DNA from: Gemmatimonadota bacterium
Lineage (GTDB): Bacteria > Latescibacterota > UBA2968
Length of the DNA: 53,090 nucleotides
Direction: 5' to 3'
Assembly: GCA_026706845.1 (NCBI GenBank)
Contig: JAPOXY010000141.1
Coordinates: forward strand, 1-53,090
Below are positions 1-50,018 of this stretch, one piece after another (the stretch's first letter is position 1; each line of letters opens with the position of its first letter). Made by a program: the position numbers and the translations under genes. Under the pieces are notes generated by a model. That model saw only the letters and a list, made by a program, of their open reading frames with translations. It ran no database searches and was not told where the DNA came from.

Positions 1-749
1 CTGAATGTATGGTTTGTCGAGTAATAGACATCGCATGGATTTCTTGCGATATGAATGAACTTGGCATTGGGGAAAAGGCGCAGGAGGTGGGGAATTCGGC
101 CGGTGTTGGAGGGGCTTTTGAGTACCAACTGTTTTCCAGCGCCCGCAAGGGTGGCTTTTTTAATGATGTCCGTGATGACGGCATCCCAGCGCGCCTGTTG
201 CCGCTCAGTCAGTCCCCTCAGGAAGATATATTTTTCAAAGTATTCCGTCGCCCTGGATGGGAATGTAAGGAAGTGAACGCTGGATAGCTCAGAGGAATTG
301 GCAATCGCGAATTCCTCCTCATTCGGCAGGTCCATCGCCAGTTTGACATCATCCTGCGGACGTTTTGGCTTGAGCTGTTTGGCCATGAAACGCTTGATCC
401 AACCACGGCCGATCAGAAAGAATGTCGGGGCGATGGATTGGAACAACGAGACGATTGCGAACTGCGGATCGCGCGTCAGGAGATAGTGCAAGTGCGTCGT
501 GCCCGAGCGGGCATGGCCGATGATAAAGATCGGTGGATGCGCAATTTTCGTCCGAGCCACGGCGCGCCCGTAGCGCATCTTTTCGATCAAGCGTAGCGGC
601 ACCATCAGGGCCGAGCCAAGGAGAATTCGCCTCACTCGTCCCCGGTGCTGAGGTGCAACCCTCACCCCGTCCTGGCCCCAGAGGAGCCTCGCCCAAACGC
701 GCAGGGGTGCGGACGTGTTGGGGTGAGCTCGTGGCTTTTTAGTGGGCAT
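1..749 (-). CDS. Sulfotransferase family protein (3' end outside the window)
   Basis: The reading frame starts at an ATG at 749-747, preceded by GGAG, and stays open to the left edge, so at least 249 residues are present and the C-terminus is missing. After a basic N-terminal stretch of about 70 residues comes IFIIGHARSGTTHLHYLL, the PAPS 5'-phosphosulfate-binding loop of sulfotransferases. Near the truncated end KSPSNTGRIPHLLRLFPNAK and FIHIARNPCDVYYS match the 3'-phosphate-binding region (R..P.D). It would move sulfate from PAPS to a hydroxyl or amine on an acceptor that the sequence does not reveal. It begins 17 nt after the stop of the GPP34-P450 gene and is probably co-transcribed with it, so the pair may oxidise and then sulfate the same lipid or secondary metabolite; that link is inference. 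Confidence 0.9.
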   Translation of the reverse strand, partial: MPTKKPRAHPNTSAPLRVWARLLWGQDGVRVAPQHRGRVRRILLGSALMVPLRLIEKMRYGRAVARTKIAHPPIFIIGHARSGTTHLHYLLTRDPQFAIVSLFQSIAPTFFLIGRGWIKRFMAKQLKPKRPQDDVKLAMDLPNEEEFAIANSSELSSVHFLTFPSRATEYFEKYIFLRGLTERQQARWDAVITDIIKKATLAGAGKQLVLKSPSNTGRIPHLLRLFPNAKFIHIARNPCDVYYSTNHTF

Positions 750-766
750 TTTGACACTCCATTTCG

Positions 767-2734
767 CTATCGGTGCCGACGCACCAGGCGGAACTTGTAG
801 TTGGGTAGGAGGGCATAGCTCCGTTTGGTCTTCAATTCGCAATCGGGCGGATGGAGAACCAATTCGGCTTCGCGGAGGACGGTCGCCATGTTGAGCGCAA
901 TGAGCACCTCGGCGAGCCTGTTGCCTGGGCACCGATGCGCTCCTAAGCCGAAGGGGACATAGACCCCGTGCTGGCGGTGCTCAGCGCGTTCTGCGGTGTA
1001 GCGGTCTATATCGAAGCGCTCCGGATTGGGGAAATATTCCGGCATCCGGTGCGGTACTGTGAATCCAATAAGAAGGGTCTCGCCAGCGGGGACCTTATAG
1101 CCCTCAAATTCAAATGAGTTGGCTACTGTGCGCAATGACATTACTGGAGCAAGGGGATAGAGGCGTATTATTTCCATTGCCGTGCGGTGGATGACGTCGA
1201 GTTGACGCAGATCGTTCACGGTAGGCATACCCTGATCAAAGAGGGCGTCTGCTTCAGCAATTACCTGCTCGCGCAGCTCCGGTCGCTTCAATAATTCGTA
1301 GAACATGAAGGCACAGATATTTGCCACGGTATCGAGACCGGCCGAGAGAGGTCCCAACATGTCTAAATCGGTCTCGGGAAGAAATTGCGGATCCCTGTGG
1401 TGCAGTTCCAGCAAATGGTCAATGGCATCCGGTGGCTTGTTGCGGCGTTTTTCTGGTTCGTGATCTGCCAGAATGCGCTGAGCCAGTTCTTCCACTCGCT
1501 TGAAGGCACGCCGGACGCGTGGTCGATATAACATCAGCCTGGGTTGCTGTCGCATGACATAGGTTTTCATCTTGCTCTGAAAATAAATCATAATGTCGTC
1601 TAAGTAGTCGTGTACAGGCATGCTGAGGGCCAGCACACCGATCTGATCTAAGACGATGCGCTGCCAGGTGTATAAGCCCGGCAGCGGCTTGTCCTGTGGC
1701 CATCCGGCGATGTCTTGTTGAAGAACGCGGACAACGTCTGCCACGCGGCCTTCAATGAGGCGGTGGGTGTACACATCCGCCAGTTCTTTGCGCAGGCGAA
1801 TATGGTCGGGACCATCCATGCTGATTATGCTACGTCCGACTCCCCCAGCTTTGTTGTAATCCACCCAGTTTTCAAGCGTGCGCAGGTATTTACCCCCTCG
1901 CTTTACGAAGGTATTCGCCTCGGGACCTACGAGGACGACGAAGCGGCGATTGAATGCCTTGATGCGAAAAATCGGACCTAAGTTTCGGTATTGTTTGACG
2001 AGAAGCGAGCCCAAATCGCGCTTCATGCCGATGGTGTTGCCAATAAGCGGCAACCCCGGTGCCTGAGGTATCTCCTTGCGTGGAGTAGGGAGAGGGGTAG
2101 GAGGCTCATGCTCGCGGATCGCTTTGGTAACCGATTGGCCGATCAGGTCCATTTTTCGAATCAGTTCGATCCGTTCTTGTACCTCCGATAGTTCTGACTG
2201 GGATAAAATATTCTTGAAAACGCCGCAGGCATCCGCCAGACAGATAATGACGATGTCGCGTGGGTCCGGAATTTCATCGGTGTACAGTACGCGCATAATG
2301 CGTAACCGGACTTCTTCTAATGTTTTTCCATCAATGGTAGGATAGCGGCGGGAGCGCGACACCAGGCGCGAGAGGAGAAAGATATCTTCGGACTCGGGTT
2401 CTAATATGCCCCGGTTGACTAAACGCGTAAGTGCTTTATCGCGGATTTCGTCGCCTCGTTTGGTCGTTTTTGCGAGCCAATAGTTGGCGTCTCGTGTGTC
2501 CGTATCGCGCGCGATGTCGGCAAGGGTGGGATCGAGCAGGTCGTCCTCGAGAGGCGTGGCATCAGCCAAAAAGAGATGCTCGAGATCGGTATCGATGCGG
2601 TTTTCCAGGGCCAAATCCATCAATACGGCACCAGCGAGGACGATGTTCAAAGTGTCTGGTGCAAGACCGGGTGCGAAATCACCTCGGTCTTCGTTGTGGA
2701 GAAGTAGCAGTATTTCTTCAGCAAATCTCAGCAT
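767..2734 (-). CDS. GPP34 (GOLPH3/Vps74-like) domain - cytochrome P450 fusion
   Basis: A 655-residue protein with two parts. Residues 1 to about 210 follow the GPP34 pattern: FAEEILLLLHNEDRG at the start, IVLAGAVLMDLALENRI, a YWL segment, and DPRDIVIICLADACGVF. In eukaryotes this fold binds phosphoinositides and glycosyltransferase tails. A proline-rich linker (about 208-225) leads to a full P450 (about 225-655): PGLPLIGNTIG at the N-terminus, the I-helix AGLDT, the K-helix ExxR (EIIR) and the haem loop FGLGAHRCPGNR with the thiolate Cys near residue 602. The P450 part should be a haem monooxygenase needing external redox partners; none is encoded here. The GPP34 part may dock it to membrane lipid. 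The start has only a weak ribosome site. A sulfotransferase follows directly. The fusion is seen in the sequence; the substrate is unknown. Confidence 0.88.
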   Translation of the reverse strand: MLRFAEEILLLLHNEDRGDFAPGLAPDTLNIVLAGAVLMDLALENRIDTDLEHLFLADATPLEDDLLDPTLADIARDTDTRDANYWLAKTTKRGDEIRDKALTRLVNRGILEPESEDIFLLSRLVSRSRRYPTIDGKTLEEVRLRIMRVLYTDEIPDPRDIVIICLADACGVFKNILSQSELSEVQERIELIRKMDLIGQSVTKAIREHEPPTPLPTPRKEIPQAPGLPLIGNTIGMKRDLGSLLVKQYRNLGPIFRIKAFNRRFVVLVGPEANTFVKRGGKYLRTLENWVDYNKAGGVGRSIISMDGPDHIRLRKELADVYTHRLIEGRVADVVRVLQQDIAGWPQDKPLPGLYTWQRIVLDQIGVLALSMPVHDYLDDIMIYFQSKMKTYVMRQQPRLMLYRPRVRRAFKRVEELAQRILADHEPEKRRNKPPDAIDHLLELHHRDPQFLPETDLDMLGPLSAGLDTVANICAFMFYELLKRPELREQVIAEADALFDQGMPTVNDLRQLDVIHRTAMEIIRLYPLAPVMSLRTVANSFEFEGYKVPAGETLLIGFTVPHRMPEYFPNPERFDIDRYTAERAEHRQHGVYVPFGLGAHRCPGNRLAEVLIALNMATVLREAELVLHPPDCELKTKRSYALLPNYKFRLVRRHR

Positions 2735-3056: not shown

Positions 3057-3086
3057 AAAGCGTGGGATTATGTCCCGCGCTTTTTT
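3057..3086. terminator. Hairpin terminator, probably bidirectional
   Basis: AAAGCGTGGGA pairs with TCCCGCGCTTT (one G-T pair) around a five-base loop, followed on the plus strand by six T. It ends the decayed plus-strand gene and lies exactly at the stop of the minus-strand PhyH gene; the minus-strand U-tract is weaker. Confidence 0.7.
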
Positions 3087-3951
3087 AATATGGTCGAAAA
3101 CCGCGTACCATGAATCCATTTTCTTTTTTTTCTTCTATCGGACGCTTTGACGATTCTGCGCGGTTTTTTGTGGTGGTGCCGCGTATGACGACGTAATCGT
3201 CGGATCTGCGGTAGCGGTGTATGAAGACGGGGCGGGGTTTGTTCGAATGGTTCTGTTTGGAGCCGTGAACGGTTTTGACGTGGAAGAAGATGGCGTCACC
3301 GGGTTGACCGGGTATTGGGAGGGCACGCTCCCAGGGCCATTCGTCGTCTGCAAGTCCCAGGTGCGAGAAGGTGTCGATGTGGTCGAGTTGTCCCAGTTTG
3401 TGAGAGCCGGGTACGACGTGGAGGGCACCGTTTTTGAGGTCGGTGGGGACGACGTAGGTGAGGATGCCAACAGGTCCTTCGTACCGGTGTTCGAAATAGG
3501 CCGAGTCCTGGTGCAGGTGTTTGGGATGGCCTCCGACGGGTTCTTTGTACAGGCATTGCCCGTTGCCGTAGAGTTCGATGTTGGGACCGAGGATGGCTTC
3601 GACGATGTCGAGGGTGGGCGGGTGAAATGCCGAGCGAAAGAAGGTGGCGCTGGTGTTGTAGTTGATGCCCAGGACCATGATTTGTCGATCGCGTTCGTAA
3701 TTTTCAGGCGCAGGTATAAAGAGGGTGCTGTTGGGCGTGCGCCATCCTTCGGGTATTGTGCTGGCTTGATCGAGGAGGTCGAGGGATTGCCTGGCTGTGG
3801 CTTCGATGTCGCGGTGAAGTGCGTCGATGTATTCGCGGAGCAGTCCCCGCACGACTATCGCACCATGGGTTTTGAATGTCTCGGCAGCGCGTTGTAGGTC
3901 AATATTTTCCGACTGGAAGTCCAGGTCGCTTAGAGAAATGGTTTGGGGCAT
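3085..3951 (-). CDS. Phytanoyl-CoA dioxygenase (PhyH) family protein
   Basis: About 288 residues from the ATG at 3951-3949; the frame is open further upstream (GTG at 4020, ATG at 3993), but homology-like sequence starts at MPQTISLSDLDF. It has the Fe(II)/2-oxoglutarate dioxygenase facial triad: HLHQDSAYFEH gives the H-x-D pair, and VHGSKQNHSNKPRPVFIHRYR gives the distal His and the Arg that holds 2-oxoglutarate. FKTHGAIVVRGLL near the N-terminus is typical of PhyH proteins. The reaction is hydroxylation coupled to 2-oxoglutarate decarboxylation; the substrate is unknown. It lies about 100 nt after the TldE-like gene in the same direction, so co-transcription is possible but less certain than for the closely spaced neighbours. 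Confidence 0.85.
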   Translation of the reverse strand: MPQTISLSDLDFQSENIDLQRAAETFKTHGAIVVRGLLREYIDALHRDIEATARQSLDLLDQASTIPEGWRTPNSTLFIPAPENYERDRQIMVLGINYNTSATFFRSAFHPPTLDIVEAILGPNIELYGNGQCLYKEPVGGHPKHLHQDSAYFEHRYEGPVGILTYVVPTDLKNGALHVVPGSHKLGQLDHIDTFSHLGLADDEWPWERALPIPGQPGDAIFFHVKTVHGSKQNHSNKPRPVFIHRYRRSDDYVVIRGTTTKNRAESSKRPIEEKKENGFMVRGFRPY

Positions 3952-4054
3952 TGTTTTTTGCTGAAAGTTGTGGGAAAATACTTTGATCTTCATGATACGC
4001 GAAACAACGCAGACTGTCACGCATATTTTGTGCTTATTCTCAGCGGCACGACCC

Positions 4055-5815
4055 TCACTTGTCGAAGAAGGGATGTAGGGACACGGGTACTCTGGGAATC
4101 TCGCCGCTCGGCGGCTTGATCGTGATGTCCTCGAACAGGACCATGCGAGGAGTGACGATACTTACGAGAACTGACTCACCTCGTCCGAAGGGGGAGGAGT
4201 TGTCCTGCGAGCGAAAGGGAACGGTGTTGACCGCGTGCGTCTTAGACACCTTCACGATGTCTTTGAAGGTATAAAGGCCGATGCCCGCAAATTCCGCGTT
4301 GCGCACGAGTTCCTCGCGGCCGTCGAGATAGACTTTATAGACGAAGATCGCGTTTTGCAACTTGTTCTCGTCGTCAGAGGAACGAGAGGAATAGTAGATA
4401 ACCGGAGATTCAGAAACATTGTACGACGGGTTGGCGATGTGGGTGACGATGTAGCCGTACTGTTTTTTTTGCCTTTTGATTAGTTTGAAAAATTCCTCGC
4501 GGATCTGCTTTTCGCTCAGGCCCTTCTCCGCCTCGACCAGGATATTGCTGGGGGCGACGCCCGGACCTCGGCGACTGCCCGTGCTCTGGTCAATGCCGCG
4601 CACAGGTGTGCGCGTCGTCAGCAAGGTCTCTAATACGCCTTCCCGCACTAGGTGGACTGGACGCGCTGGAACGCCTTCGTCGTCAACCCTGTAGCCGCCG
4701 AACAAGGGTTGCTTTTTATAGGCGTCCATGAGCGGTTCAGCGCGCACGCTGAGGAATTCGGGTAGGACGCGTACACCAATTTTGTCCAGAAAAGGGTTTT
4801 CTTTTTTTTGGGGATAGAAGCGCTCGTAGTCCGGATTGTCGGACAGTGTCCGGCGCGTCGATAGCATGTAGGGCACAAATCCCTGATTGAACAGCTCTGT
4901 GGCTGCCTGGCTCGTGAATATCACGGGTCCGGTAAAGCGCTCGACCAGCGGTGCCTGGCGTAGCTGCTTCAGACGCTCGCCCATGGTATTGATCTTCGCG
5001 GCCAACTCGTCGTCACCGGGAAGATTTTCCGGTGAACGGGCGTACACGGCGACGAAGTCCTGTAGCGGCATTCCGTCGGGAGCCTGGGTGGCGGCGACCG
5101 CGGTGAGAGATAGTGAAGAACTCGTGCGAGAGAAGGAAGATCCTTCGCTGTTGAAGTAGTAGAACGAGGTGTTGGACCCGTTGAAACGTACCCTTGAAGT
5201 GTAGATGTCGGGCATCTCGCGGAACAGGCCCGAGAGCTGGCGCGCTCGCTGTTCCAGCGCGTCGAGATCCAGGACAATAGGTGCCATTTTGTGTACTTTG
5301 GTGGCGGACTTTTCCCTGCTGAAATCGGGAATTTCTTCGGTGCGGGTTTTGTTTTGCAAGGTCGCGCGTTTCCTGGCCAGATCTTCGAGCGCCTTCTTGT
5401 AGGCACCGTCGGTGGCCAGCCATATCTTGCGTCGCAACTCGTCGTAGTTGTCCTCAAGGGGCAATTGCACGCTGCCCCCGTACATGTACACTACGCCCGT
5501 ACGACCGAAAGAGAACGAGCGGAAGTTGGTGTTGTCGAGGGCGTAGTCTCCGACCCGCACTTCGACACTGAGTTCGCGCGAGTGCCTCTCACTGCTGTTG
5601 AGCAGACTGCCGAAGGTCGCTGAACTGCTTTTGGATTTCACTTCGCGCACGCGGTAGGAAATGAAGTAGGGTCGCTCCAGGTCTTCGAGCTGAAGTTGTT
5701 GCATTGAGCGCGCCAATTCGTCGCGCAGGGCGCGTTGCAGAATGTCGTCTTCGGCGTGGACCGCGGAAAACGCCAGGAAGATAGCTATAACGTGGATGAA
5801 GGTTCTTTTGTACAT
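4055..5815 (-). CDS. Exported TldD/PmbA-family protein without the metal site (TldE-like)
   Basis: A 586-residue protein with a signal peptide (MYKRTFIHVIAIFLAFSAV, cut after HA). It aligns along its length with the neighbouring TldD-like protein: VGDYALDNTNF, FTGPVIFTSQAATELF, SNILVEAEKGLS and VYLDGREELVRNAEF all have counterparts. Where the neighbour carries HEIFGH, this protein has FNQGFVP, so it lacks the zinc ligands. The Cys-containing segment near the C-terminus is also absent. In the known cytosolic TldD/TldE protease one subunit holds the metal and the other does not, so a heterodimer with the neighbour is the natural reading, here in the periplasm. It starts 27 nt after the neighbour's stop, consistent with co-translation of partners. 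Confidence 0.82.
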   Translation of the reverse strand: MYKRTFIHVIAIFLAFSAVHAEDDILQRALRDELARSMQQLQLEDLERPYFISYRVREVKSKSSSATFGSLLNSSERHSRELSVEVRVGDYALDNTNFRSFSFGRTGVVYMYGGSVQLPLEDNYDELRRKIWLATDGAYKKALEDLARKRATLQNKTRTEEIPDFSREKSATKVHKMAPIVLDLDALEQRARQLSGLFREMPDIYTSRVRFNGSNTSFYYFNSEGSSFSRTSSSLSLTAVAATQAPDGMPLQDFVAVYARSPENLPGDDELAAKINTMGERLKQLRQAPLVERFTGPVIFTSQAATELFNQGFVPYMLSTRRTLSDNPDYERFYPQKKENPFLDKIGVRVLPEFLSVRAEPLMDAYKKQPLFGGYRVDDEGVPARPVHLVREGVLETLLTTRTPVRGIDQSTGSRRGPGVAPSNILVEAEKGLSEKQIREEFFKLIKRQKKQYGYIVTHIANPSYNVSESPVIYYSSRSSDDENKLQNAIFVYKVYLDGREELVRNAEFAGIGLYTFKDIVKVSKTHAVNTVPFRSQDNSSPFGRGESVLVSIVTPRMVLFEDITIKPPSGEIPRVPVSLHPFFDK

Positions 5816-5842: not shown

Positions 5843-7540
5843 TCAAGGGAGGTCCGATTCTTCAGCGGACTCGGAGAAAGGTGATTCGAGGATAGGCCGG
5901 CGCTCCTGGGATTTCTCTTTCTTCTGCACTTCAATCTGCGAGATGAATATGCCGGGAGAGACCGCGGCCACGGGTACGCCTCCCGACTCGGCGCCGCATA
6001 TGCCGTTGAATACGCCGGTCTGATCGTCAGCAGCGGCGATCTGGCTGAAGGCAGTGAGCGGCGTGCCGATCAGGTCAACTCCGCGCACGAGTTCCTCGCG
6101 TCCGTCGGTATAAATGCGGTACACCATGATGGGAAGCACGTTGAAGGCGTTGGGGAAGGTGCGGCCCGTGATGGTGAAGCCCCCCTGGATATCCTCGAAA
6201 TAGAGGCCGAATGCCTTGTCTTCCCTGCGACACTGTTCGATGAGCATTTCCTTGAGCTGGTCCCGGGTCAGCGGCTCCGAGGTCTCGACAATGAGGTTGG
6301 ACTGGCGCGCTACGGGGGCATAGCCCGGCTGCTTGCGTCCGTGGCCGTTGGAGTTGGGGAAGTTCTCGATCGGGGAACGCGACATGAGGAAGCGGCGGAA
6401 AATCCCGTTTTCGACGACGACGACCCGCCGCGCCTTGACGCCCTGATTGTCGTATGCGTAGGCTCCTACCAGATCCTTGCCAGCACTGCTCGTCTGAGTG
6501 GGATCGAAGTAAACTGAGAAGGTCTCGGGCAGGACTTTTTCTCCTATTTTCTTTTTGAAGGTCTGGCCCTCGTCCTCGCGTTTCTGGCGGTGGCCCTCGA
6601 TGCGGTGTCCGAAAATTTCGTGGAAGAGAACGCCGCTGGCGCGGCCCGAGAGAATCGCTGGACCGGTGTAGGGGGCTACTATAGGGGCGTCGCGCAGGGC
6701 GTGCAAGTCAGCAATTATGCGCTCTACCAGAGCGAGGACCTCATCGTCGCTGGGCAAACCCTCCGGGGTAAAGGCCGAGAAGGATTCGTAGCGCGGCAAT
6801 TCCATGCCGTCGTCGGCCTTGGTAAAGGCGTAGATGAACAGTCGGTAGAGTACTTGTGAGGTCTGGATCTTGCTGCCCTCGCTGTTGACGTATTGGCGGG
6901 TCGAGATATTAGCCGAGAGGCTGGCTTCGGCTTCGTAGATGTCTCCGTATTGGGCGAAGGGGGCCGTGTATTTCTTGAGCCTGGCTTCCCATTCGTCGCG
7001 GGGGATGTCGAAGGAGGCGATGTCTTCCACATAGTGCTCGACCGGCTCTTTGGAAAAATCGTCCGACTGGTCTTCCTCTTCTACCTTGACCCGGACATTG
7101 GTCTTGACCGTGGTTAGCTTTTCAATGGCGCGTTTGTACTTTTTGTCGGTGTGGTACCAGAGCACGCTGCGGATGGCGTCCGGATCATCCTCAATGGGAA
7201 TTTCGATTCTCGAATAGCGATCGGACCAATTGCGGGGGCCACCGCGGACCTGATGCGTATTGTCGAAGGCGTAGTCCCCCACGCGCAGATCGATATCGAG
7301 CCGCCGCCGCTGCGATTCGCGGCTGTAGGTGAGCACGCCGAAGGAGGCTTCGACGCTGATTCCCTGCGTCTCGGTGATTTCATAGCTGAGGTAGTAGGGT
7401 GGGACCGGCTGCTTCTGGAGCGAACTGAAGGAGCGGGTCAGTTCTTCCCGCATGGCCTGTAGTAATGAGGTCTCGGCCCGAACGCTGGTAGCAGTAAACA
7501 CGATGCAGACGAGGCATAAAAGCCTGGAAAATGATCTCAT
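5843..7540 (-). CDS. Exported TldD-family metalloprotease, metal site intact
   Basis: A 565-residue protein with a signal peptide (basic MRSFSRLL, hydrophobic core, cut near VRA). The metal motif HEIFGH is at residues 307-312, with a further His at 317 (RIEGH), as in TldD. Downstream AYDNQGVKARRVVVVENG and the glycine-rich, Cys-containing NGICGAESGG match the family's C-terminal half. Known TldD/TldE complexes are cytosolic zinc proteases acting on unfolded or ribosomally made peptides (microcin B17, CcdA). An exported version implies peptide processing in the periplasm. The start has GAAAGG about 7 nt upstream. It is first in a run with the metal-less paralogue and PhyH. Confidence 0.87.
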   Translation of the reverse strand: MRSFSRLLCLVCIVFTATSVRAETSLLQAMREELTRSFSSLQKQPVPPYYLSYEITETQGISVEASFGVLTYSRESQRRRLDIDLRVGDYAFDNTHQVRGGPRNWSDRYSRIEIPIEDDPDAIRSVLWYHTDKKYKRAIEKLTTVKTNVRVKVEEEDQSDDFSKEPVEHYVEDIASFDIPRDEWEARLKKYTAPFAQYGDIYEAEASLSANISTRQYVNSEGSKIQTSQVLYRLFIYAFTKADDGMELPRYESFSAFTPEGLPSDDEVLALVERIIADLHALRDAPIVAPYTGPAILSGRASGVLFHEIFGHRIEGHRQKREDEGQTFKKKIGEKVLPETFSVYFDPTQTSSAGKDLVGAYAYDNQGVKARRVVVVENGIFRRFLMSRSPIENFPNSNGHGRKQPGYAPVARQSNLIVETSEPLTRDQLKEMLIEQCRREDKAFGLYFEDIQGGFTITGRTFPNAFNVLPIMVYRIYTDGREELVRGVDLIGTPLTAFSQIAAADDQTGVFNGICGAESGGVPVAAVSPGIFISQIEVQKKEKSQERRPILESPFSESAEESDLP

Positions 7541-7636: not shown

Positions 7637-8611
7637 TTAGATCAGTTCTGAGAGGATTATGCGGCGGTTTTCCTCAATTGATCGTTCGGCTGCGAGACCG
7701 ATCAGCGCGGCGTTGATGGCTGTGCGCGCGTCGGTTTGCCAGTTGCCATTGTGGATATCACTGAGGAATTGGGTTTGGATTGTGATGTCCAATGATTCGG
7801 CTGCGGGCAGGTCGTGTTCGCCTGATTTTGTCGAGAGGTGCCAGCCATCGCCTCTGTTGATGAGCGTCCCGTCTGTCATGACGATGTGGCGATATTCTTC
7901 GGCATCGGAAATTTCGATGCCACCGGTCCAGTTCCACTGACCAATACCGCCGTTTTCAAAACCGACTGCGACGGAATTTGCAAAGCTATCGTAGGTGCTG
8001 TCATCGCGCAGATTTTCATAGTGGGCAGCGGCTTCAACCCAGGTGGCGGGACCAAAACAATCGACGAGTGGATAGATGTTATAGACAAAAAAGAGGGCTG
8101 GTGGACCCGATATGGAGATATTAAAGAGGATTTCGGGACGTTGACCACGGCCCGGGGTGAGGCGGGTGAATAGTGCGGTTATGAGATTTCCCGTTTGGGC
8201 TGTTTGTCGTTTGAGTGTCCGGTGAGAGGGCGAGAGTACTTCGTTGTGGCCAACTCTGAGCACAAGGGACGACTGGTCGATTCTGGAAAGCAATTGTTGC
8301 GCTTCATCGATATTGCGCGCCGCGGGATATTCGGTAAAAACGTGTTTGTTTGCATCGAGTGCGGCAAGGGCGATTTCACTGTGGGTGTCGTTGTAGGTGC
8401 ATATTGCGATGGCGTCGATGTCGTCGCGTTTGAGTATTTCCCGATAGGTCGGTAAGTAATCTATACCGTGCTTGTTGGCGAGTGCTGGCCCGGTTTCTAT
8501 GTTTCGCGCAGCAATGGCAATGAGTTCAAAGCCATCTGTTCGGGAAAAGTGCTGGGCATGGCGACTCGCCATACCGCCTGAGCCGATGATGCCAATGCGA
8601 ATGTCGTTCAT
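7637..8611 (-). CDS. Gfo/Idh/MocA-type oxidoreductase with EYP in place of EKP
   Basis: About 324 residues from the ATG at 8611-8609, chosen because GGAGG lies five bases upstream and GIIGSGGMASRH (the NAD(P) Rossmann loop) follows at once; the frame runs ten codons further upstream without support. The usual catalytic motif EKP reads EYP (HVFTEYPAARN). Tyr at this place is also found in biliverdin reductase, a member of the same fold family, so the protein may not be a sugar dehydrogenase. The C-terminal domain has the expected beta-sheet pattern. It starts 13 nt after the methyltransferase stop and is probably co-transcribed with it. Its first codons and ribosome site are duplicated at the start of that methyltransferase. 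Confidence 0.85.
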   Translation of the reverse strand: MNDIRIGIIGSGGMASRHAQHFSRTDGFELIAIAARNIETGPALANKHGIDYLPTYREILKRDDIDAIAICTYNDTHSEIALAALDANKHVFTEYPAARNIDEAQQLLSRIDQSSLVLRVGHNEVLSPSHRTLKRQTAQTGNLITALFTRLTPGRGQRPEILFNISISGPPALFFVYNIYPLVDCFGPATWVEAAAHYENLRDDSTYDSFANSVAVGFENGGIGQWNWTGGIEISDAEEYRHIVMTDGTLINRGDGWHLSTKSGEHDLPAAESLDITIQTQFLSDIHNGNWQTDARTAINAALIGLAAERSIEENRRIILSELI

Positions 8612-8620
8612 TTTTCCTCC
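8563..8620. repeat. Copy A of a 50-bp duplication (oxidoreductase start)
   Basis: Covers the ribosome site and about 16 codons of the Gfo/Idh gene. It matches 9461-9509 almost base for base apart from a 9-nt in-frame insertion (three codons) and single substitutions. This copy fits the Rossmann loop its protein needs, so it is the likely donor. Confidence 0.85.
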
Positions 8621-8624
8621 AAAC

Positions 8625-9500
8625 TTAGATCTTGACGCCAATTACGCCGACCATTGATGGCGATGAAATATTGGCTTGTGGATCGCGGGCATTTGTTTGC
8701 CATTCTTCCCAATGCGCCGCGCAATCTTCTTCGCGCAATGCGCCGCGTGCCACGAGTTCGGGCAAATACATGCGCAAGAAATCTTCTATCCAGCACCAGA
8801 TGCGGTTGCCCGGGCGGGCAATGCCGCCGATGGGAATGACTTCCACGACCTCCAGGCCACAACGTTCCATGAGGTGCGGTAGCTTATCGCCGATTTTGAG
8901 TCCATCGCCGAAGCTCCTGTGTACCGCCTGTAGCACGCGTCGCAAGTGGGGGTATTGGATCTGGGCGACAAATGCCCCATAAGCGCAGTAATCCATAACG
9001 AGCAGGCGTCCGCCCCTTTTAAGCATGCGGGCTACCTGCTCAATCACCTTTTGTGGCTCTTTTATGAAGCAGAGTAGCCAACGAGCGAACACAGCGTCTA
9101 TAGAAGCGGCTGGCAGGTCAAGGGTGCGGACATCCGCTACGACGACCTCGATTTGCGTCATACTGGCTGATGCAGCGCGGTGTCGGAGAAAATTCGCGAA
9201 TTTTTTTGATCCATCCACGGCCAGAACGCGCCCACCTGCGCCCACGCGCTCGCCCAGTTCTAAACTCGTAAAGCCCGGGCCACAACCGAGGTCGAGAATC
9301 GTTTGTCCAGCGCGAAAGGCGGCGCGATCCCACAAGTCTGTGGTTTCGGCCTGCCATGCATTGTGTTGCGCTTGCAGGCGGTGCAGTTCCTCGTCATTTG
9401 TTCCCAACAGATAGTCGCGTTCGGCAGCGGTGCTCACGGCGTGTTTTCCTCTTTTATTATGACTCGCCATACCGCCCGAGCCGATGATGCCATCGTTCAT
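8625..9500 (-). CDS. Class I SAM-dependent methyltransferase with a captured N-terminus
   Basis: 291 residues. Motif I is ILDLGCGPGFTSLELG, motif II VLAVDGSKK, then VVADVRTLDLPAASIDAVFA and a post-II segment MLKRGGRLLVMDYC, all typical of class I methyltransferases. The acceptor is unknown. The first residues, MNDGIIGSGGMASH, are not methyltransferase sequence: they copy the start of the downstream Gfo/Idh protein, minus three residues, and the DNA including the GGAG ribosome site is duplicated too. Methyltransferase-like sequence begins around AAERDYLLGTNDEELHRL. A strong terminator ends only about 13 bp upstream, leaving no room for its own promoter, so expression may depend on read-through from the kor operon. 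Confidence 0.85.
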   Translation of the reverse strand: MNDGIIGSGGMASHNKRGKHAVSTAAERDYLLGTNDEELHRLQAQHNAWQAETTDLWDRAAFRAGQTILDLGCGPGFTSLELGERVGAGGRVLAVDGSKKFANFLRHRAASASMTQIEVVVADVRTLDLPAASIDAVFARWLLCFIKEPQKVIEQVARMLKRGGRLLVMDYCAYGAFVAQIQYPHLRRVLQAVHRSFGDGLKIGDKLPHLMERCGLEVVEVIPIGGIARPGNRIWCWIEDFLRMYLPELVARGALREEDCAAHWEEWQTNARDPQANISSPSMVGVIGVKI

Positions 9501-9569: not shown

Positions 9570-11111
9570 TTAGTTGGGCGATATGTTGTCTGAGAAGAGA
9601 CCGCCGGTGAACTTGAGCATGACTTTAAAGGATGCCAGACCCACGGGACATCCATCGGGATCTACAATGGGTATGTGGCGAAAGCCGTGCAGAGACATCA
9701 GGTGCAGGAGGTGACCGATGGGATCAGATGTTTTCAATGCGGTGGGGTCTTTGGTCATCAGGCTATCGACCGTTATTTTTGTCAGGTCTATATCGCGCCC
9801 GGCAACTTTTTCAAAGAGATCGCCCTGTGCGAATATGCCGCGCAACAAGCCCTGTTTGTCAACGACCAGCAAACATCCCAGATTTTTACTGCGCATGGTC
9901 TCGACGGCATCGGCTACCGAGGTCTCAGCAGATACGCATTCGGGTGCTGGCAGGTCGAGGGATGAGATGGGGTCGTAGAGCAGTTGCTGAAGCGCGGTGC
10001 GCGGTGCCATGGGGTCTTCTTGTTCGATATCGGGAATGATATTCGATGTGGGCAATTCTTCGTGGACTTCTTGCACGGTTTCGGCGTCGGGACCTTCGGG
10101 AACAATCCAGGTGTCTGTCGCGTGATACAGGGCATTGAGATCGCCTGCGCCGCGCTCTTCAACTGCCTGGCGGCCCTGTGCGATGATTTGCTCTTCGTAA
10201 ATTGGACGTTCTACACAGCGAAATACGCCGAATGGCACCGGATATTCCGGATGTGTGAGACGGCTGAGCAAATACGCATGGGCTGGATTATCCAGGGTTT
10301 CGTCGTGTGTGAGCAAGTCGCTTTCCGATACGCCATTGCCCAGGGTTACGACTTCGGGTGCGAGTCCATTGACGCGGATGCCTTTGTCGCGGTCTTTGCC
10401 AAAAATGATGGGTTGGCCGTGTTCGAGGATCACGGTTTGATCGTCTTTGACATCTGCCTCGGTGGCAAAAAACCAGGCACCGTCGTTGTAGATGTTGCAG
10501 TTCTGGTAAATTTCGACAAAGGATGTGCCGCGGTGTTCGGTGGCGCGTTTGAGAATCTCGGCCATGTGCTTGGTGTTGCGGTCAACACTGCGGGCGACAA
10601 AGGTGGCTTCGGCTGCCAGGGCAACGGAGATGGCATTGAAGTCCTGTTCCACAGAGCCCATGGGCGACGAATAGGTGCGCGTGCCCGGCGGCGATGTAGG
10701 TGAGTATTGTCCTTTGGTGAGGCCGTAGATCGCATTGTTGAAGAGTATGATGTTGAGATCGACGTTGCGACGCAGCACATGCAACAGGTGATTGCCACCT
10801 ATGGATAGGCTGTCGCCATCGCCGGTGATTACCCACACATGCAGGTCGGGATTGGCCACTTTGAGGCCAGTCGCCACGGTTGCCGCACGACCGTGAATGG
10901 TGTGCAGACCGTACGTGTTCATGTAATAGGGGAAGCGGCTGGAGCAACCGATGCCCGATATAAAGACCATATCTTCCCGCGCAATGCCCATTTCGGGCAA
11001 CACGCGCTGCATCTGTGCGAGGATGGCGTAATCACCACAACCGGGGCACCAGCGCACTTCCTGGTCGGATACGAAGTCTTTTCGCGTCAGTGTTTCAATA
11101 GCGTCTGCCAT
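9570..11111 (-). CDS. korB: 2-oxoacid:ferredoxin oxidoreductase beta subunit with C-terminal CBS pair
   Basis: 513 residues. The first 340 or so form the thiamine-diphosphate subunit: WCPGCGDYAIL near the N-terminus, ISGIGCSSRFPYY, and the ThDP motif GDGDSLSIGGNH ending in NNAIYGLTKGQYSPTS. Iron-sulfur ligands would be the CPGC cysteines plus GIGC and QNC. Unlike usual KorB proteins of about 350 residues, it carries two CBS repeats after an acidic linker (about 385-510): VSAETSVADAVETMRSKNLG and LMTKDPTALKTSDPIGHLLH. CBS pairs bind adenine nucleotides, so activity may be tuned to AMP/ATP. It starts 12 nt after korA. The substrate is most likely 2-oxoglutarate, judged from the KorA/KorB layout, but pyruvate or another 2-oxoacid cannot be ruled out. 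Confidence 0.9.
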   Translation of the reverse strand: MADAIETLTRKDFVSDQEVRWCPGCGDYAILAQMQRVLPEMGIAREDMVFISGIGCSSRFPYYMNTYGLHTIHGRAATVATGLKVANPDLHVWVITGDGDSLSIGGNHLLHVLRRNVDLNIILFNNAIYGLTKGQYSPTSPPGTRTYSSPMGSVEQDFNAISVALAAEATFVARSVDRNTKHMAEILKRATEHRGTSFVEIYQNCNIYNDGAWFFATEADVKDDQTVILEHGQPIIFGKDRDKGIRVNGLAPEVVTLGNGVSESDLLTHDETLDNPAHAYLLSRLTHPEYPVPFGVFRCVERPIYEEQIIAQGRQAVEERGAGDLNALYHATDTWIVPEGPDAETVQEVHEELPTSNIIPDIEQEDPMAPRTALQQLLYDPISSLDLPAPECVSAETSVADAVETMRSKNLGCLLVVDKQGLLRGIFAQGDLFEKVAGRDIDLTKITVDSLMTKDPTALKTSDPIGHLLHLMSLHGFRHIPIVDPDGCPVGLASFKVMLKFTGGLFSDNISPN

Positions 11112-13034: not shown

Positions 13035-13502
13035 TTAGGCACCAGCCCGAGCGCTGGCAAAGTGGTCGGGGGTTGGCGGTAAGTTGTAGATTTCTTCTGG
13101 AAAGTGATCGCTCATGTATTTGATGATGGCATAGTGTGTCAGTGTGCCCAATACGCGCCCTTCTGCATCTACGACGGGCATATAGCGGTGGGGCTTGTCG
13201 CTCATAAATCGGATGGCTTCAATTAGTGTGATATCCGATTGCAAGGTGAGCGGATCGGGGGTCATGATCGTTTCTATAGGCTCGTTGAGTACTTCGGATT
13301 GATCGATCACGCGGCGGGCAATATCGTGCGCTGTAAAAATGCCGATCAGTTTGCCCTGGTCCATGACCAGCGCGCATTTGCGCTGACTATTCTGCATTTT
13401 GGTGATGACCTGATCAACGGAATTGTCTTTTTGCACTTCGACGTAAAAAGAGAGATCAACGTGTTTTACTGTGTCGTTGTGGAGGCTGTGATTCAGATTC
13501 AT
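13035..13502 (-). CDS. Stand-alone CBS-pair protein
   Basis: About 155 residues from the ATG at 13502-13500 (MNLNHSLHND). The frame is open to 13589 but a sigma70-like promoter lies at 13561-13589, so the longer form would start inside the promoter. Two CBS repeats: NSVDQVITKMQNSQRKCALV with GIFTAHDIARRVI, and MTPDPLTLQSDITLIEAIRF with MPVVDAEGRVLGTLTHYAI. It is first in the operon with korA and korB, whose KorB carries its own CBS pair; a role as an adenylate-sensing partner of the enzyme is inferred from this position. Confidence 0.85.
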   Translation of the reverse strand: MNLNHSLHNDTVKHVDLSFYVEVQKDNSVDQVITKMQNSQRKCALVMDQGKLIGIFTAHDIARRVIDQSEVLNEPIETIMTPDPLTLQSDITLIEAIRFMSDKPHRYMPVVDAEGRVLGTLTHYAIIKYMSDHFPEEIYNLPPTPDHFASARAGA

Positions 13503-13560
13503 TGGGTAGGCTCTTTGGGGAGTTTTATAGGGATTTAGAGCTGTAATTTTAGAGCAATTT

Positions 13561-13589
13561 AATATAAGGTATTTACATGTGTGTGGCAA
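13561..13589 (-). promoter_or_regulatory. Sigma70-like promoter of the CBS-korA-korB operon
   Basis: Reading on the minus strand, TTGCCA (13589-13584), a 17-bp spacer, and TATATT (13566-13561). Transcription would begin near 13554, giving a leader of about 50 nt before the ATG at 13502. Confidence 0.7.
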
Positions 13590-46392: not shown

Positions 46393-47169
46393 ATGAAACA
46401 ATTTTTTGCCCTATATGTGAAGGAACTCAAAGCGAATAGAGCACTTTTTCTGTTTTTGCTCCTTTTGATTGTGGGGATGAATGTCTATGGGCTTATCCTG
46501 GTAGAAAATTTTACGTTTTTAGAAATAAAAAAAGAGACAGGGGGACATATTCAAATTCTCAATATTCCCTGGTCAGGGCTGGCTGCTCTTATCTTCGTTT
46601 TTAGTCTGCCCTTTTTGCTGGCGCATGCCTTCAATACCGAATGGAAATCAGAAACGCATTATCAGATGTTTGCACTAACGGTACCTCAGTACACGGTCAT
46701 TCTGTCAAAAGTCGCTGCGGTTGCGAGCAAGGGCATTGTAGGCGGCGTAATTGTGACTATCGGTCTGTCTTTATGGGCAGCGCGTAAGGCCGCTTTGCCG
46801 AACGTAAAGATATTGTCAGTAGGAGGAACAGAAGTTACGGCATTTTTTGATTTTGCTCTTGTGGTTGGTTTGGTACTTATGACGTATATGATTTTTATTT
46901 TCGGTGTTGTGACCGGGATGGAGGGAGTGAAGTTCACAGTTAAGCGGTATCGGGGATTGGTTGCGGTTGCTTTTTTTGTTTTATCCACATTTTTATACGG
47001 TCAGCTTTTCCAACAAGGTGAGAGGGCATTCAAATTTTTCGGACAGATTTCAATGTCTCCTCCTGCTGAATTTGCAATTGATGTGGGACCTTTTATCTAT
47101 ACGATTCTGATGGGCGTCATCTTTATGATTATTGGGCTTGTTGTGTATGAAAAACGCGCGGAAATATGA
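46393..47169 (+). CDS. ABC-2-type permease subunit, paralogue 1 of 3
   Basis: 258 residues with about six hydrophobic helices (near 17-36, 58-80, 107-130, 150-175, 190-210, 235-253). It starts FFALYVKELKANRALFLFLL, the same as the two permeases downstream, and shares SLPFLLAHAFNTEWKSETHY, VTGMEGVKF.VKRYRG and a last helix ending MIIGLVVYEKRAEI. This is the ABC-2 or YtrC-like topology. AAAGGAG precedes the ATG. It stands before the GntR-ATPase pair, so it is probably one membrane subunit of that transporter. Confidence 0.82.
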   Translation: MKQFFALYVKELKANRALFLFLLLLIVGMNVYGLILVENFTFLEIKKETGGHIQILNIPWSGLAALIFVFSLPFLLAHAFNTEWKSETHYQMFALTVPQYTVILSKVAAVASKGIVGGVIVTIGLSLWAARKAALPNVKILSVGGTEVTAFFDFALVVGLVLMTYMIFIFGVVTGMEGVKFTVKRYRGLVAVAFFVLSTFLYGQLFQQGERAFKFFGQISMSPPAEFAIDVGPFIYTILMGVIFMIIGLVVYEKRAEI

Positions 47170-47210
47170 GGTTCGATCTATGACTGTAAAAAAAGTCAGG
47201 AGGCATTTGT

Positions 47211-47582
47211 ATGCCACCTTATGAGTTTGATCCAAATGCGCCTATTTATTTGCAAATTATCGGCGAGATCAAAAAGCGTTCGGTGCGCGGGGTTTATTCG
47301 CCGGGGTCAAAGTTGCCTTCGGTGCGGGATATGGCGAAGGAAATGGGCGTGAATCCCAATACAATGGCGCGGGCTTATGCAGAGCTTGAGCGAGAGGGGT
47401 TTGTTTTTACGCGGCGTGGGCAGGGTTCGTTTGTGACAGAGGATGGGAAGAAGATTGAGGCTGAGAAGCGGGCGTTGGCAAAGAGTGCTGTTGCGCGGTT
47501 TGTTGCCGAGGTTGGAGAATTGGATCTTTCCAGCGAGCAAATTGCCGATTTGTTGCGCGATATAGAGGAGGATTTGACATGA
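47211..47582 (+). CDS. GntR-family regulator, YtrA type
   Basis: 123 residues. A winged-helix domain (about 8-75: PIYLQIIGEIKKRSVRGVYS, PSVRDMAKEMGVNPNTMARAYAELE, GQGSFV) is followed by only a short helical tail (about 80-123), which marks the YtrA subfamily that controls neighbouring ABC transporter genes. AGGAGG precedes the start. The stop overlaps the ATPase start by four bases (ATGA), so the two are translationally coupled. It probably represses this cluster. Confidence 0.92.
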   Translation: MPPYEFDPNAPIYLQIIGEIKKRSVRGVYSPGSKLPSVRDMAKEMGVNPNTMARAYAELEREGFVFTRRGQGSFVTEDGKKIEAEKRALAKSAVARFVAEVGELDLSSEQIADLLRDIEEDLT

Positions 47583-48271
47583 TGATCGATGTTCGAGATG
47601 TTTGGAAGCGATATCCGGGCGCGTGGGCGCTACGCGGTGTTTCTTTTCAGGTTGAGCGCGGGCGTGTGCAAGGTGTGTTGGGCGAGAACGGGAGTGGGAA
47701 GAGTACTTTGTTCCGCATTCTAGCTGGTTTGACCCGTCCGTCGCGGGGATCCGCCGAGGTGATGGGGCAAGCGGTGAGTGTGAAGACCCGGCAGCATGTG
47801 GCTTATTTGGCGGAGATCAATCCGTTTTACGATTGGATGAAGGTGATGGAGCAGGTGGAGTTTCTGGCGCGTTTTTATCCAGGGTGGGATATGGATAAGT
47901 CGCGCGAGTTGCTGAGTTTTATGGGGCTGGATGAGGATAAGAAGGTGGGCGCGCTTTCGCGGGGTCAACAGGGACGGCTCAAGGTGGTGTGCGCGTTTTC
48001 CTGGCCGAGTGATCTGGTTTTGATGGATGAGCCGCTATCCGGTATTGATCCCCCGTCGCGCAAGCGCATTGTCGAGGCTTTGTTTAGCGAGTTTCGATTT
48101 GGGGAGCAGACGATTTTGATTTCGACGCATCTGGTCCATGAAGTGGGCGAGTTTATCGAAGATGTGATGTTTATGAAAGAGGGCGAGATCGCACTTTCCG
48201 GCAATGCAGATGCGCTACGTGAGGAACGGGGAGAGTCGCTTTCCGAGATGTTTGAGATGGTGGCGATGTGA
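47579..48271 (+). CDS. ABC transporter ATPase (ABC-2 / YtrB-like)
   Basis: 230 residues. Walker A is GENGSGKST, the Q-loop region YLAEINPFYDWMKV, the signature ALSRGQQGRLK (a variant of LSGGQ), Walker B DLVLMDEPLSGIDP, and the switch His is in ISTHLVHEVGE. It would power the ABC-2 permeases on both sides. Its start overlaps the GntR stop; a second ATG directly follows the first and either could be used. Confidence 0.93.
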   Translation: MMIDVRDVWKRYPGAWALRGVSFQVERGRVQGVLGENGSGKSTLFRILAGLTRPSRGSAEVMGQAVSVKTRQHVAYLAEINPFYDWMKVMEQVEFLARFYPGWDMDKSRELLSFMGLDEDKKVGALSRGQQGRLKVVCAFSWPSDLVLMDEPLSGIDPPSRKRIVEALFSEFRFGEQTILISTHLVHEVGEFIEDVMFMKEGEIALSGNADALREERGESLSEMFEMVAM

Positions 48272-48401
48272 GAGGGCGGTGTCTCTATGTCCGTCCATCA
48301 GCGTAGGGGCGGTGCCCCCGTGCCCGCCCGGTAATGTAGGGTTTGGTACTATTCTGTTGTAGGGGACGGTCCCCTACTTAGAACATGCAGGATCAGGCTC
48401 C
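48272..48401. repeat. GC-rich palindromes after the ATPase gene
   Basis: GGGGC-GGT-GCCCC (48306-48318) lies 35 bp after the ATPase stop, then GTAGGGGAC-G-GTCCCCTAC (48359-48377), a perfect 9-bp inverted repeat. Next to it, CCCCTACTTAGAACATGCAG resembles the loop of repeat copy 4. No T-run follows, so they are extragenic repeats rather than terminators. Confidence 0.65.
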
Positions 48402-48434
48402 CGTCATCGCGGCAGGTTTTTAGCCGCGATCCAG
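48402..48434. repeat. CGTCAT/TCCAG palindromic repeat, copy 5
   Basis: CGTC, ATCGCGGC (48406-48413), short T-rich loop, GCCGCGAT (48423-48430), CCAG. It stands immediately before the ribosome site of the second ABC-2 permease, just as copy 4 does for the first. Confidence 0.85.
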
Positions 48435-48453
48435 TGCTTTCAAGGAGTATGCC

Positions 48454-49200
48454 ATGAAACCATTTTTTGCATTATACGTGAAGGAACTCAAAGCGAATAA
48501 AACCCTTTTTCTATTTTTGTTGCTTTTGATCGCGGGGTTGAATGCGTATGGGCTTATCCGAATAGAAGATGGTTTGGATTTCGAAGAGGCATTCAAACAG
48601 ATATTTATTTGGACGACGATAGCAATTTTTCTCGTTCTTCTCAGTCTGCCCTTTTTGTTGGCGCATGCCTTCAATTCTGAGTGGAAATCGGAAACGCATT
48701 ATCAGATGTTTGCGTTGCCAGTATCACAATACACGGTGATTCTGGCAAAGGTCGCTGTGGTTGCGAGTATTGGTTTTGTGGGTGGTGGGATTGTTATAGG
48801 AAGCCTGTATTTACTGATTTTGGCCAATCTGCCAGGTCAAATTCTATCATTTGATGGGATGGAGGTTACCTTATTTTGGGATTTTGTTTTTATGTGTGGT
48901 TTAGGGCTTGTAACATATATGGTTTTCATCCTCGGCCTTGTGACCGGGATGGAAGGCATAAAGTTTTCGGTCAAGCGGTATCGGGGATTGACTGCGGTCG
49001 CTTTTTTTGCACTTGCCGTGTTTTTATACATCCGATTTTTTCAGCAAGGAAAGATGGCGTTAGATTTTTTAGGGCAAATCTCAATCCTTCCTACGCCTTC
49101 TGGACAAATAGCGTGGGCGCCGTTTGTCTATACCATTCTTACGGGTATCATCTTTATGATCATTGGGCTTGTGATGTATGAAAGACGCGCGGAAATATAA
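48454..49200 (+). CDS. ABC-2-type permease subunit, paralogue 2 of 3
   Basis: 248 residues, six predicted helices. MKPFFALYVKELKANKTLFL starts it, followed by SLPFLLAHAFNSEWKSETHY, YTVILAKVAVVASIGFVGGG and VTGMEGIKFSVKRYRGLTAV; it ends MIIGLVMYERRAEI. AAGGAG precedes the ATG. The repeat and ribosome site in front resemble those before paralogue 1, so the duplication included upstream DNA. Confidence 0.82.
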   Translation: MKPFFALYVKELKANKTLFLFLLLLIAGLNAYGLIRIEDGLDFEEAFKQIFIWTTIAIFLVLLSLPFLLAHAFNSEWKSETHYQMFALPVSQYTVILAKVAVVASIGFVGGGIVIGSLYLLILANLPGQILSFDGMEVTLFWDFVFMCGLGLVTYMVFILGLVTGMEGIKFSVKRYRGLTAVAFFALAVFLYIRFFQQGKMALDFLGQISILPTPSGQIAWAPFVYTILTGIIFMIIGLVMYERRAEI

Positions 49201-49250
49201 ATTCCGAATTGTGTAATGGTGGTCGAATACTCTTTACTTGGGATCGTGAT

Positions 49251-50018
49251 ATGAAACCATTTTTTGCATTATACGTGAAGGAACTCAAAGCGCATAAAAT
49301 CCTTTTTTTATTTGTGCTGCTTTTAATTGCGGGGATGAATGCTTATGGGATTATGCAGGTAGAATATGTTTGGCATTTTAAGGATGTGATCGAGTCCGGC
49401 GATAATCTTCCTTTTATTCTTTGGCCCAGTTTCAGCTATTTCTGGCCAATGCTGGCTGTTTTTACTCTTGTTCTGAGTTTGCCCTTTTTGCTGGCGCATG
49501 CCTTCAATTCCGAGTGGCGATCCGAAACGCATTATCAGATGTTTGCGATACGAGATTCACAATATATCGTGAATTTGACAAAGGTCGCTGCGGTCGCGAG
49601 TGTAGGCTTTGTGGGCGGTGGAATGGTAGTTTGCAGTCTGTATTTCTGGATGGTGCGTAAGGCCGAGTTTGTAGATGGCGTAATAGAGTTGATGTCATTT
49701 CCCCATTTTACTCTGGTGACGGGCTTGATTCTTGTGACGTATATGGTTTTCATCCTCGGTCTTGTGACCGGGATGGAGGGAGTGAAGTTTTCGGTTAAAC
49801 GGTATCGGGGATTGACTGCGATTGCTTTTTGTCTGGTATCCGTATTTTTATATGGCTGGCTTTTCCTGCAAGGGGAGAGGGCGTTTGAATTCTTAGGACA
49901 AATTGCGATGCCTCCTTTTGGAGTTGTGAATGTGGCTCCTTGTGTCTATACCATTTTTACGGGTATCATCTTCATGATCATTGGGCTTGTGATGTATGAA
50001 AAACGTGCGGAAATATAG
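49251..50018 (+). CDS. ABC-2-type permease subunit, paralogue 3 of 3
   Basis: 255 residues from the ATG at 49251; a frame extension to 49209 exists, but MKPFFALYVKELKAHKILFL aligns with the starts of the other two. Six predicted helices, shared SLPFLLAHAFNSEWRSETHY and VTGMEGVKFSVKRYRGLTAI, end MIIGLVMYEKRAEI. It is closer to paralogue 2 than to 1 and follows it by 50 bp without the hairpin repeat. The ribosome site is weak (TTGGGATCG). Confidence 0.82.
   Translation: MKPFFALYVKELKAHKILFLFVLLLIAGMNAYGIMQVEYVWHFKDVIESGDNLPFILWPSFSYFWPMLAVFTLVLSLPFLLAHAFNSEWRSETHYQMFAIRDSQYIVNLTKVAAVASVGFVGGGMVVCSLYFWMVRKAEFVDGVIELMSFPHFTLVTGLILVTYMVFILGLVTGMEGVKFSVKRYRGLTAIAFCLVSVFLYGWLFLQGERAFEFLGQIAMPPFGVVNVAPCVYTIFTGIIFMIIGLVMYEKRAEI

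Follow-up and report, generated by a model that had tools for sequence, protein, structure and literature searches.

A GOLPH3-like GPP34 domain fused to cytochrome P450s in a multi-phylum bacterial family with a sister branch tied to sterol gene clusters

The window analyzed here, a stretch of 53,090 nucleotides (contig JAPOXY010000141.1), encodes a protein in which a GPP34 domain, the domain of GOLPH3 and Vps74, stands in front of a cytochrome P450. Eukaryotic GPP34 proteins are peripheral membrane adaptors; to our knowledge no role has been established for the bacterial ones, none has demonstrated membrane binding, and no cofactor is known for the domain. What, then, does GPP34 do at the N-terminus of a P450? 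A search of the open-access literature for GPP34 together with P450 yielded no relevant paper, although the architecture may have been listed before.

A sequence-only reading of this DNA had proposed that residues 1 to about 210 form a GPP34 domain and continue in the same frame into a complete P450 with AGLDT, EIIR and haem-cysteine motifs, and had called for profile searches. These bear the proposal out: the frame is uninterrupted, all three motifs are intact, and both domains score well above the Pfam cut-offs (GPP34, 126.4 bits against 29.1, with profile positions 2–200 of 201 matched; p450, 184.8 bits against 22.8). The P450 is a full-length domain with ExxR and haem-cysteine motifs, as the class demands, and its I-helix motif is of the canonical (A/G)Gx(D/E)T type. 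Our GPP34 profile matches yeast Vps74 (E=3e-20) as well as human GOLPH3, and the homology extends over the whole domain; this likeness is one of sequence profiles, as AlphaFold2 models built from 6–7 close sequences reached pLDDT values of 34 and 41. The protein has no transmembrane helix, in that no 19-residue stretch exceeds a mean hydropathy of 1.6. The annotated start is credible, because the N-terminal MLRFAEE also opens standalone GPP34 proteins in the same genomes. Feature coordinates are listed in Table 1.

Table 1. The GPP34-P450 fusion gene of the window, its parts and its immediate neighbors.
Feature	Position	Strand	Evidence
GPP34-P450 fusion ORF (group A)	767..2734	-	655 aa + stop, frame unbroken
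GPP34 (GOLPH3-like) domain, residues 5-208	2111..2722	-	Pfam PF05719 E=2e-36; family profile vs GOLPH3 3kn1 E=5.4e-30
Beta-hairpin region FLLSRLVSRSRRYP, residues 119-132	2339..2380	-	Alignment; site of 4-residue insertion vs all standalone bacterial GPP34 compared
Proline-rich linker into P450 start, EPPTPLPTPRKEIPQAPGLPLIGN, residues 210-233	2036..2107	-	Sequence + alignment
Cytochrome P450 domain, residues 224-646	797..2065	-	Pfam PF00067 E=3.4e-54
I-helix oxygen-activation motif AGLDT, residues 465-469	1328..1342	-	Sequence + alignment
K-helix ExxR motif EIIR, residues 521-524	1163..1174	-	Sequence + alignment
Haem-cysteine loop FGLGAHRCPG, residues 595-604	923..952	-	Sequence + alignment
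Sulfotransferase (Sulfotransfer_3)	1..749, runs off window	-	Pfam E=7.1e-23; ATG at 749, 17 nt past fusion stop codon
PhyH-type dioxygenase, upstream of fusion	3085..4020 (ORF as listed; true start probably internal)	-	Pfam E=2.4e-28

A scan of 84,980 species genomes recovered relatives 89–97% identical to the window fusion in MAGs that bear the label Latescibacterota or Gemmatimonadota. If every genome in which a single frame, intact or broken, includes both domains is counted, the same domain order occurs in about 43: 17 are spread over several genera within the window's phylum, and the others come from a single genus in each of the phyla of G312 (12 of 16 genomes), G134 (9 of 58) and G338 (5 of 18). 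GPP34 is present in 25 of the 64 genomes of the window's phylum, where its proteins are of two kinds, standalone (∼220 aa) and long (∼550–720 aa), and all readable long ones run on into a P450. Up to five paralogues occur per genome, with five fusions in the single contig of G049. Three fusion loci are present in the window's own genome. One is the window copy; a second, of the same subfamily (group A, below), is truncated where contig C119 ends; of the third, a group B copy, the C-terminal part lies at one end of C143. Neither a search of IMG/VR for the fusion protein nor a plasmid tblastn with the GPP34 half alone gave a match. An apparent C-terminal GPP34 fusion in L081, L221 and L223 (frames of 412–661 aa) proved to be an artefact; the upstream arginine-rich frame contains no domain, and GPP34 begins at an internal MRFAEE. 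Isolate names of the fusion-bearing MAGs presumably point to a sponge origin, and from these names and the literature on sponge Latescibacterota the window lineage is probably sponge-associated. Latescibacterota are documented in sponges (PMC12993501).

The fusions fall into two subfamilies about 35% identical to each other. Group A, which includes the window protein, is 42–97% identical to it and keeps an I-helix motif of the AGxDT type, with the variants AGLHT in L041 and AAVDT in L052. Group B, which includes L054–L067 and L082–L086, is 31–36% identical to the window protein; it retains ExxR and the haem cysteine, and because SVYLGD or AMYMGD stands in place of AGxDT its P450s may not be ordinary monooxygenases. 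Comparison of the window gene with four relatives gave dN/dS values of 0.15–0.24 for the GPP34 half and 0.20–0.29 for the P450 half, and purifying selection thus acts on both alike. This selection, the near relatives in named MAGs and the number of genomes with the architecture together show that the fusion is not an assembly chimera.

In phylogenetic trees the fused GPP34 domains form one clan apart from the standalone ones (support 84/89), and all fused P450s lie in one group (93/94) in which an unfused P450, L191 of G158, is nested; a Planktothrix P450 is sister to the fused clade and L052 lies at the base of group B. The 4-residue hairpin insertion is also common to all fused GPP34 domains. 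The same genomes encode standalone GPP34 proteins that, albeit 54–57% identical to the GPP34 half of the window protein, have no P450 and a shorter hairpin, and fall outside the clan. The simplest account, with moderate support, is one ancestral fusion followed by one loss. Two independent fusions are disfavored, at the same moderate support, by the GPP34 clan, the common insertion and the nested position of L191. Two further observations concern the history of individual copies. Between the window gene (767-2734) and L043:7361-9328, dS is 0.59 in the GPP34 half and 0.10 in the P450 half, though the genomes belong to different families, and this difference suggests that the P450 half was recently transferred or recombined. 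For L062–L065 of group B, the trees of the N- and C-terminal parts conflict.

At the membrane GOLPH3 uses residues W81, R90, R171 and R174 together with a hairpin at 190–201 (PMC13408441). A profile alignment places these four residues at A25, A34, D95 and R98 of the window protein, the placement of W81, beside a gap, being the least certain. Only R174 is therefore kept in the window protein and none of the four in group B; the R90 position is alanine in all group A members, and the GPP34 half of the window protein is net acidic (−14). With three of the four PI4P residues lost in group A and all four in group B, PI4P recognition of the GOLPH3 type is unlikely. We reject the fusion as a GOLPH3-type PI4P effector on these pocket residues, which leaves its membership of GPP34 (PF05719) unaffected. 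The hairpin region keeps its hydrophobic residues, as in GOLPH3 and Vps74, and in group A has a basic end, SRSRRYP, so that membrane contact is possible. The earlier suggestion that the domain anchors a soluble P450 at a membrane lipid accordingly survives in part: the GOLPH3-type pocket is not conserved, but anchoring as such agrees with the absence of a transmembrane helix, with the peripheral nature of the eukaryotic adaptors and with the sterol-lipid context of group B.

For both subfamilies the best PDB sequence match of the P450 half is the bacterial sterol enzyme CYP51, which is weak evidence because P450s resemble one another. The similarity falls short of CYP51 level; the window protein gives E=1.3e-34 and group B E=7e-20, compared with E=2.7e-102 for the CYP51 of L228 against the Methylococcus capsulatus enzyme. 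The nearest P450 outside the fused clade, at 34% identity, is NMG72_RS21615 on a plasmid of Planktothrix agardhii. Unlike the fusion it has no GPP34, and its gene cluster, of the triterpenoid type, also encodes a squalene-hopene-type cyclase, a member of the squalene synthase family, a Rieske protein and other P450s.

Many of the group B fusions stand in sterol gene clusters. A common order is OEP, HlyD, RND and fusion, followed by a sterol C24-methyltransferase (SMT; Sterol_MT_C), a flavin amine-oxidase-like protein, a Rieske oxygenase (KshA_C) and an Fe-ADH; the SMT lies within about 3 kb of the fusion in 16 loci. L085 and L086 additionally have an ERG4/ERG24 reductase and an MMPL protein, and the MMPL homologue in L082 matches a sterol-sensing domain. 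In L228/L233 a single cluster contains a squalene epoxidase-oxidosqualene cyclase fusion, CYP51, ERG4/24 (E=7e-72), a Rieske protein, a 3b-HSD-like protein, the GPP34-P450 fusion and an SMT, and in L227 the GPP34-P450 fusion directly adjoins another epoxidase-cyclase. Group B thus has neighbors of known sterol function (SMT, ERG4/24, epoxidase-cyclase and CYP51), a genomic company similar to that of bacterial CYP51 such as the M. capsulatus enzyme. The latter carries a ferredoxin rather than GPP34. Because CYP51 is a separate gene in L228/L233, where the fusion is the second P450, the fused group B P450 probably catalyzes a different step. We note that the epoxidase-cyclases at L227:9633-12965 (-) and L233:4037-7603 (-), single frames of 1111 and 1189 aa that are 67% identical and come from two genomes of the phylum of G338, are possible two-step sterol entry enzymes. 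Sterol transport in the bacterium M. capsulatus involves an RND protein (PMC10942540), and working SMTs are known from sponge symbionts (PMC10070321).

Group A has different company. A sulfotransferase lies near the fusion in most of the loci whose downstream side is covered, a PhyH gene is upstream in four (the window, L046, L047 and L049), and other neighbors include an acyltransferase, DUF6785 and a glycosyl hydrolase; L042 has an acyltransferase and matches EXPERA/EBP weakly, short of the cut-off (E=0.0013). No sterol genes were found near group A fusions, that of the window included, within the stretches examined, so the substrate class of the window protein has to be argued from the sister subfamily and the tree. 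No squalene or oxidosqualene cyclase was found in the window's own genome (G000) or in seven other fusion genomes tested, all incomplete assemblies, and on this ground we set aside the idea that G000 encodes de novo sterol synthesis. G000 does have an SMT and a Rieske gene beside its group B copy. The sole strong cyclase match in the window's phylum is in G026, a genome without GPP34 whose P450s are unfused; there the cyclase is part of a triterpenoid-type cluster with three unfused P450s and an ABC exporter (L155, G026:C410). Since no cyclase turned up in the window's own genome or in most of the fusion genomes from its phylum, the substrate would need uptake there, and sterols, if they are the substrate, would probably come from the host or diet.

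The reading we favor, albeit tentatively, is that GPP34 is an inner-face membrane anchor for a P450 that acts on a polycyclic lipid of the sterol or triterpenoid kind. GPP34 would hold an active monooxygenase at the inner face of the cytoplasmic membrane, where the P450 would meet its lipid. Eukaryotic sterol P450s have an N-terminal membrane helix, and GPP34 would take its place, with the usual proline-rich P450 start following. It is this position, the proline-rich start and the kin in sterol clusters that favor an anchor; as the closest relatives stand in sterol-making or sterol-modifying clusters, parking at the membrane by GPP34 is probable. Other P450s with an extra domain in one chain are known, among them CYP102/BM3, CYP116B and the CYP51-ferredoxin fusions, and in these the partner domain delivers electrons; GPP34, in contrast, sits N-terminally, at the place of a membrane anchor. 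In group A the P450 would hydroxylate the lipid, and the new hydroxyl may then be sulfated by the sulfotransferase encoded 17 nt downstream; the group A substrate is the weakest step of the proposal. In group B the fused P450 would work with the C24-methyltransferase, an ERG4/24-type reductase, the Rieske oxygenase and an RND or MMPL transporter.

The main rival, which we consider rather unlikely, is that GPP34 chiefly docks a protein partner (the sulfotransferase, the methyltransferase, the RND pump or a redox partner) and touches the membrane only secondarily. GOLPH3 does bind glycosyltransferase tails (PMC13408441), the domain remains under purifying selection with its PI4P pocket lost, and possible partners are encoded next to the fusion, the sulfotransferase in group A and, in many group B loci, an RND exporter directly upstream. 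GPP34 is common to both groups, however, while their neighbors differ, so no single partner explains it; the sulfotransferase, whose recruitment by GPP34 had been suggested earlier, fits a shared pathway equally well. It is similarly doubtful that the anchored group A P450 acts on some other hydrophobic molecule, such as a fatty acid, a carotenoid, another terpenoid or a xenobiotic. The group A neighborhoods, in which sulfotransferase, PhyH, acyltransferase, DUF6785 and glycosyl hydrolase genes take the place of sterol genes, and the low identity between the groups speak for such a substrate, but both the sister group and the closest outside relative stand in sterol or triterpenoid clusters. 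Fortuitous read-through or a decaying protein with an idle GPP34 half is highly improbable: frameshifts or truncations affect some copies (G175, L053) and the nested unfused L191 indicates that the domain can be lost, but the architecture persists across its many genomes, the GPP34 half has a low dN/dS, and one single-contig genome keeps five copies.

Several other features of the window deserve mention. Tandem genes at 4055-5815 and 5843-7540 (-) encode TldD/PmbA-like proteins with N-terminal signal-like sequences and, with HEIFGH only in the second, look like an active/inactive exported pair. At 8552-8641 and 9411-9500 (-) there is a short duplicated gene start, in that the methyltransferase ORF 8625-9500 nearly repeats, at its own start, the beginning of the downstream Gfo/Idh gene (GGCATCATCGGCTCgGGCGGTATGGCGAGTC). 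By eye, a 2-oxoacid:ferredoxin oxidoreductase beta-like protein (9570-11111, -) has an apparent C-terminal CBS pair, and another CBS-like protein is encoded at 13035-13589. One ABC-type ATPase gene stands amid three paralogous membrane proteins (MKxFFALYVKELKA...) at 46393-50018 (+).

The GPP34-P450 fusion is a multi-phylum family with a sister branch tied to sterol gene clusters, which goes beyond what the sequence-only reading could see. A broader proposal, possible and held with less confidence than the anchor itself, is that a GOLPH3-type adaptor was built once into sterol-tailoring P450s and spread over genera of four phyla, giving two kinds of enzyme: a membrane-docked hydroxylase with a sulfated product in group A, and in group B an AGxDT-less P450 that would serve an as yet unassigned step, either in the synthesis of bacterial sterols or in the remodelling of host sterols. 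To judge by those records that are named, this spread may be sponge-linked. If true, the proposal would give bacterial GPP34 its first assigned function; the covalent fusion names a client enzyme class for the domain, so that its role becomes directly testable. An enzyme carried to the membrane by GPP34 without PI4P would, if confirmed, point to an adaptor role that predates the Golgi. Whether bacterial sterol clusters of this kind gave rise to sponge-type sterane biomarkers is under debate (PMC10070321); the fusion adds an uncharacterized P450 to such clusters, and the hydroxylase-sulfotransferase pair of group A could be a source of sulfated symbiont lipids.
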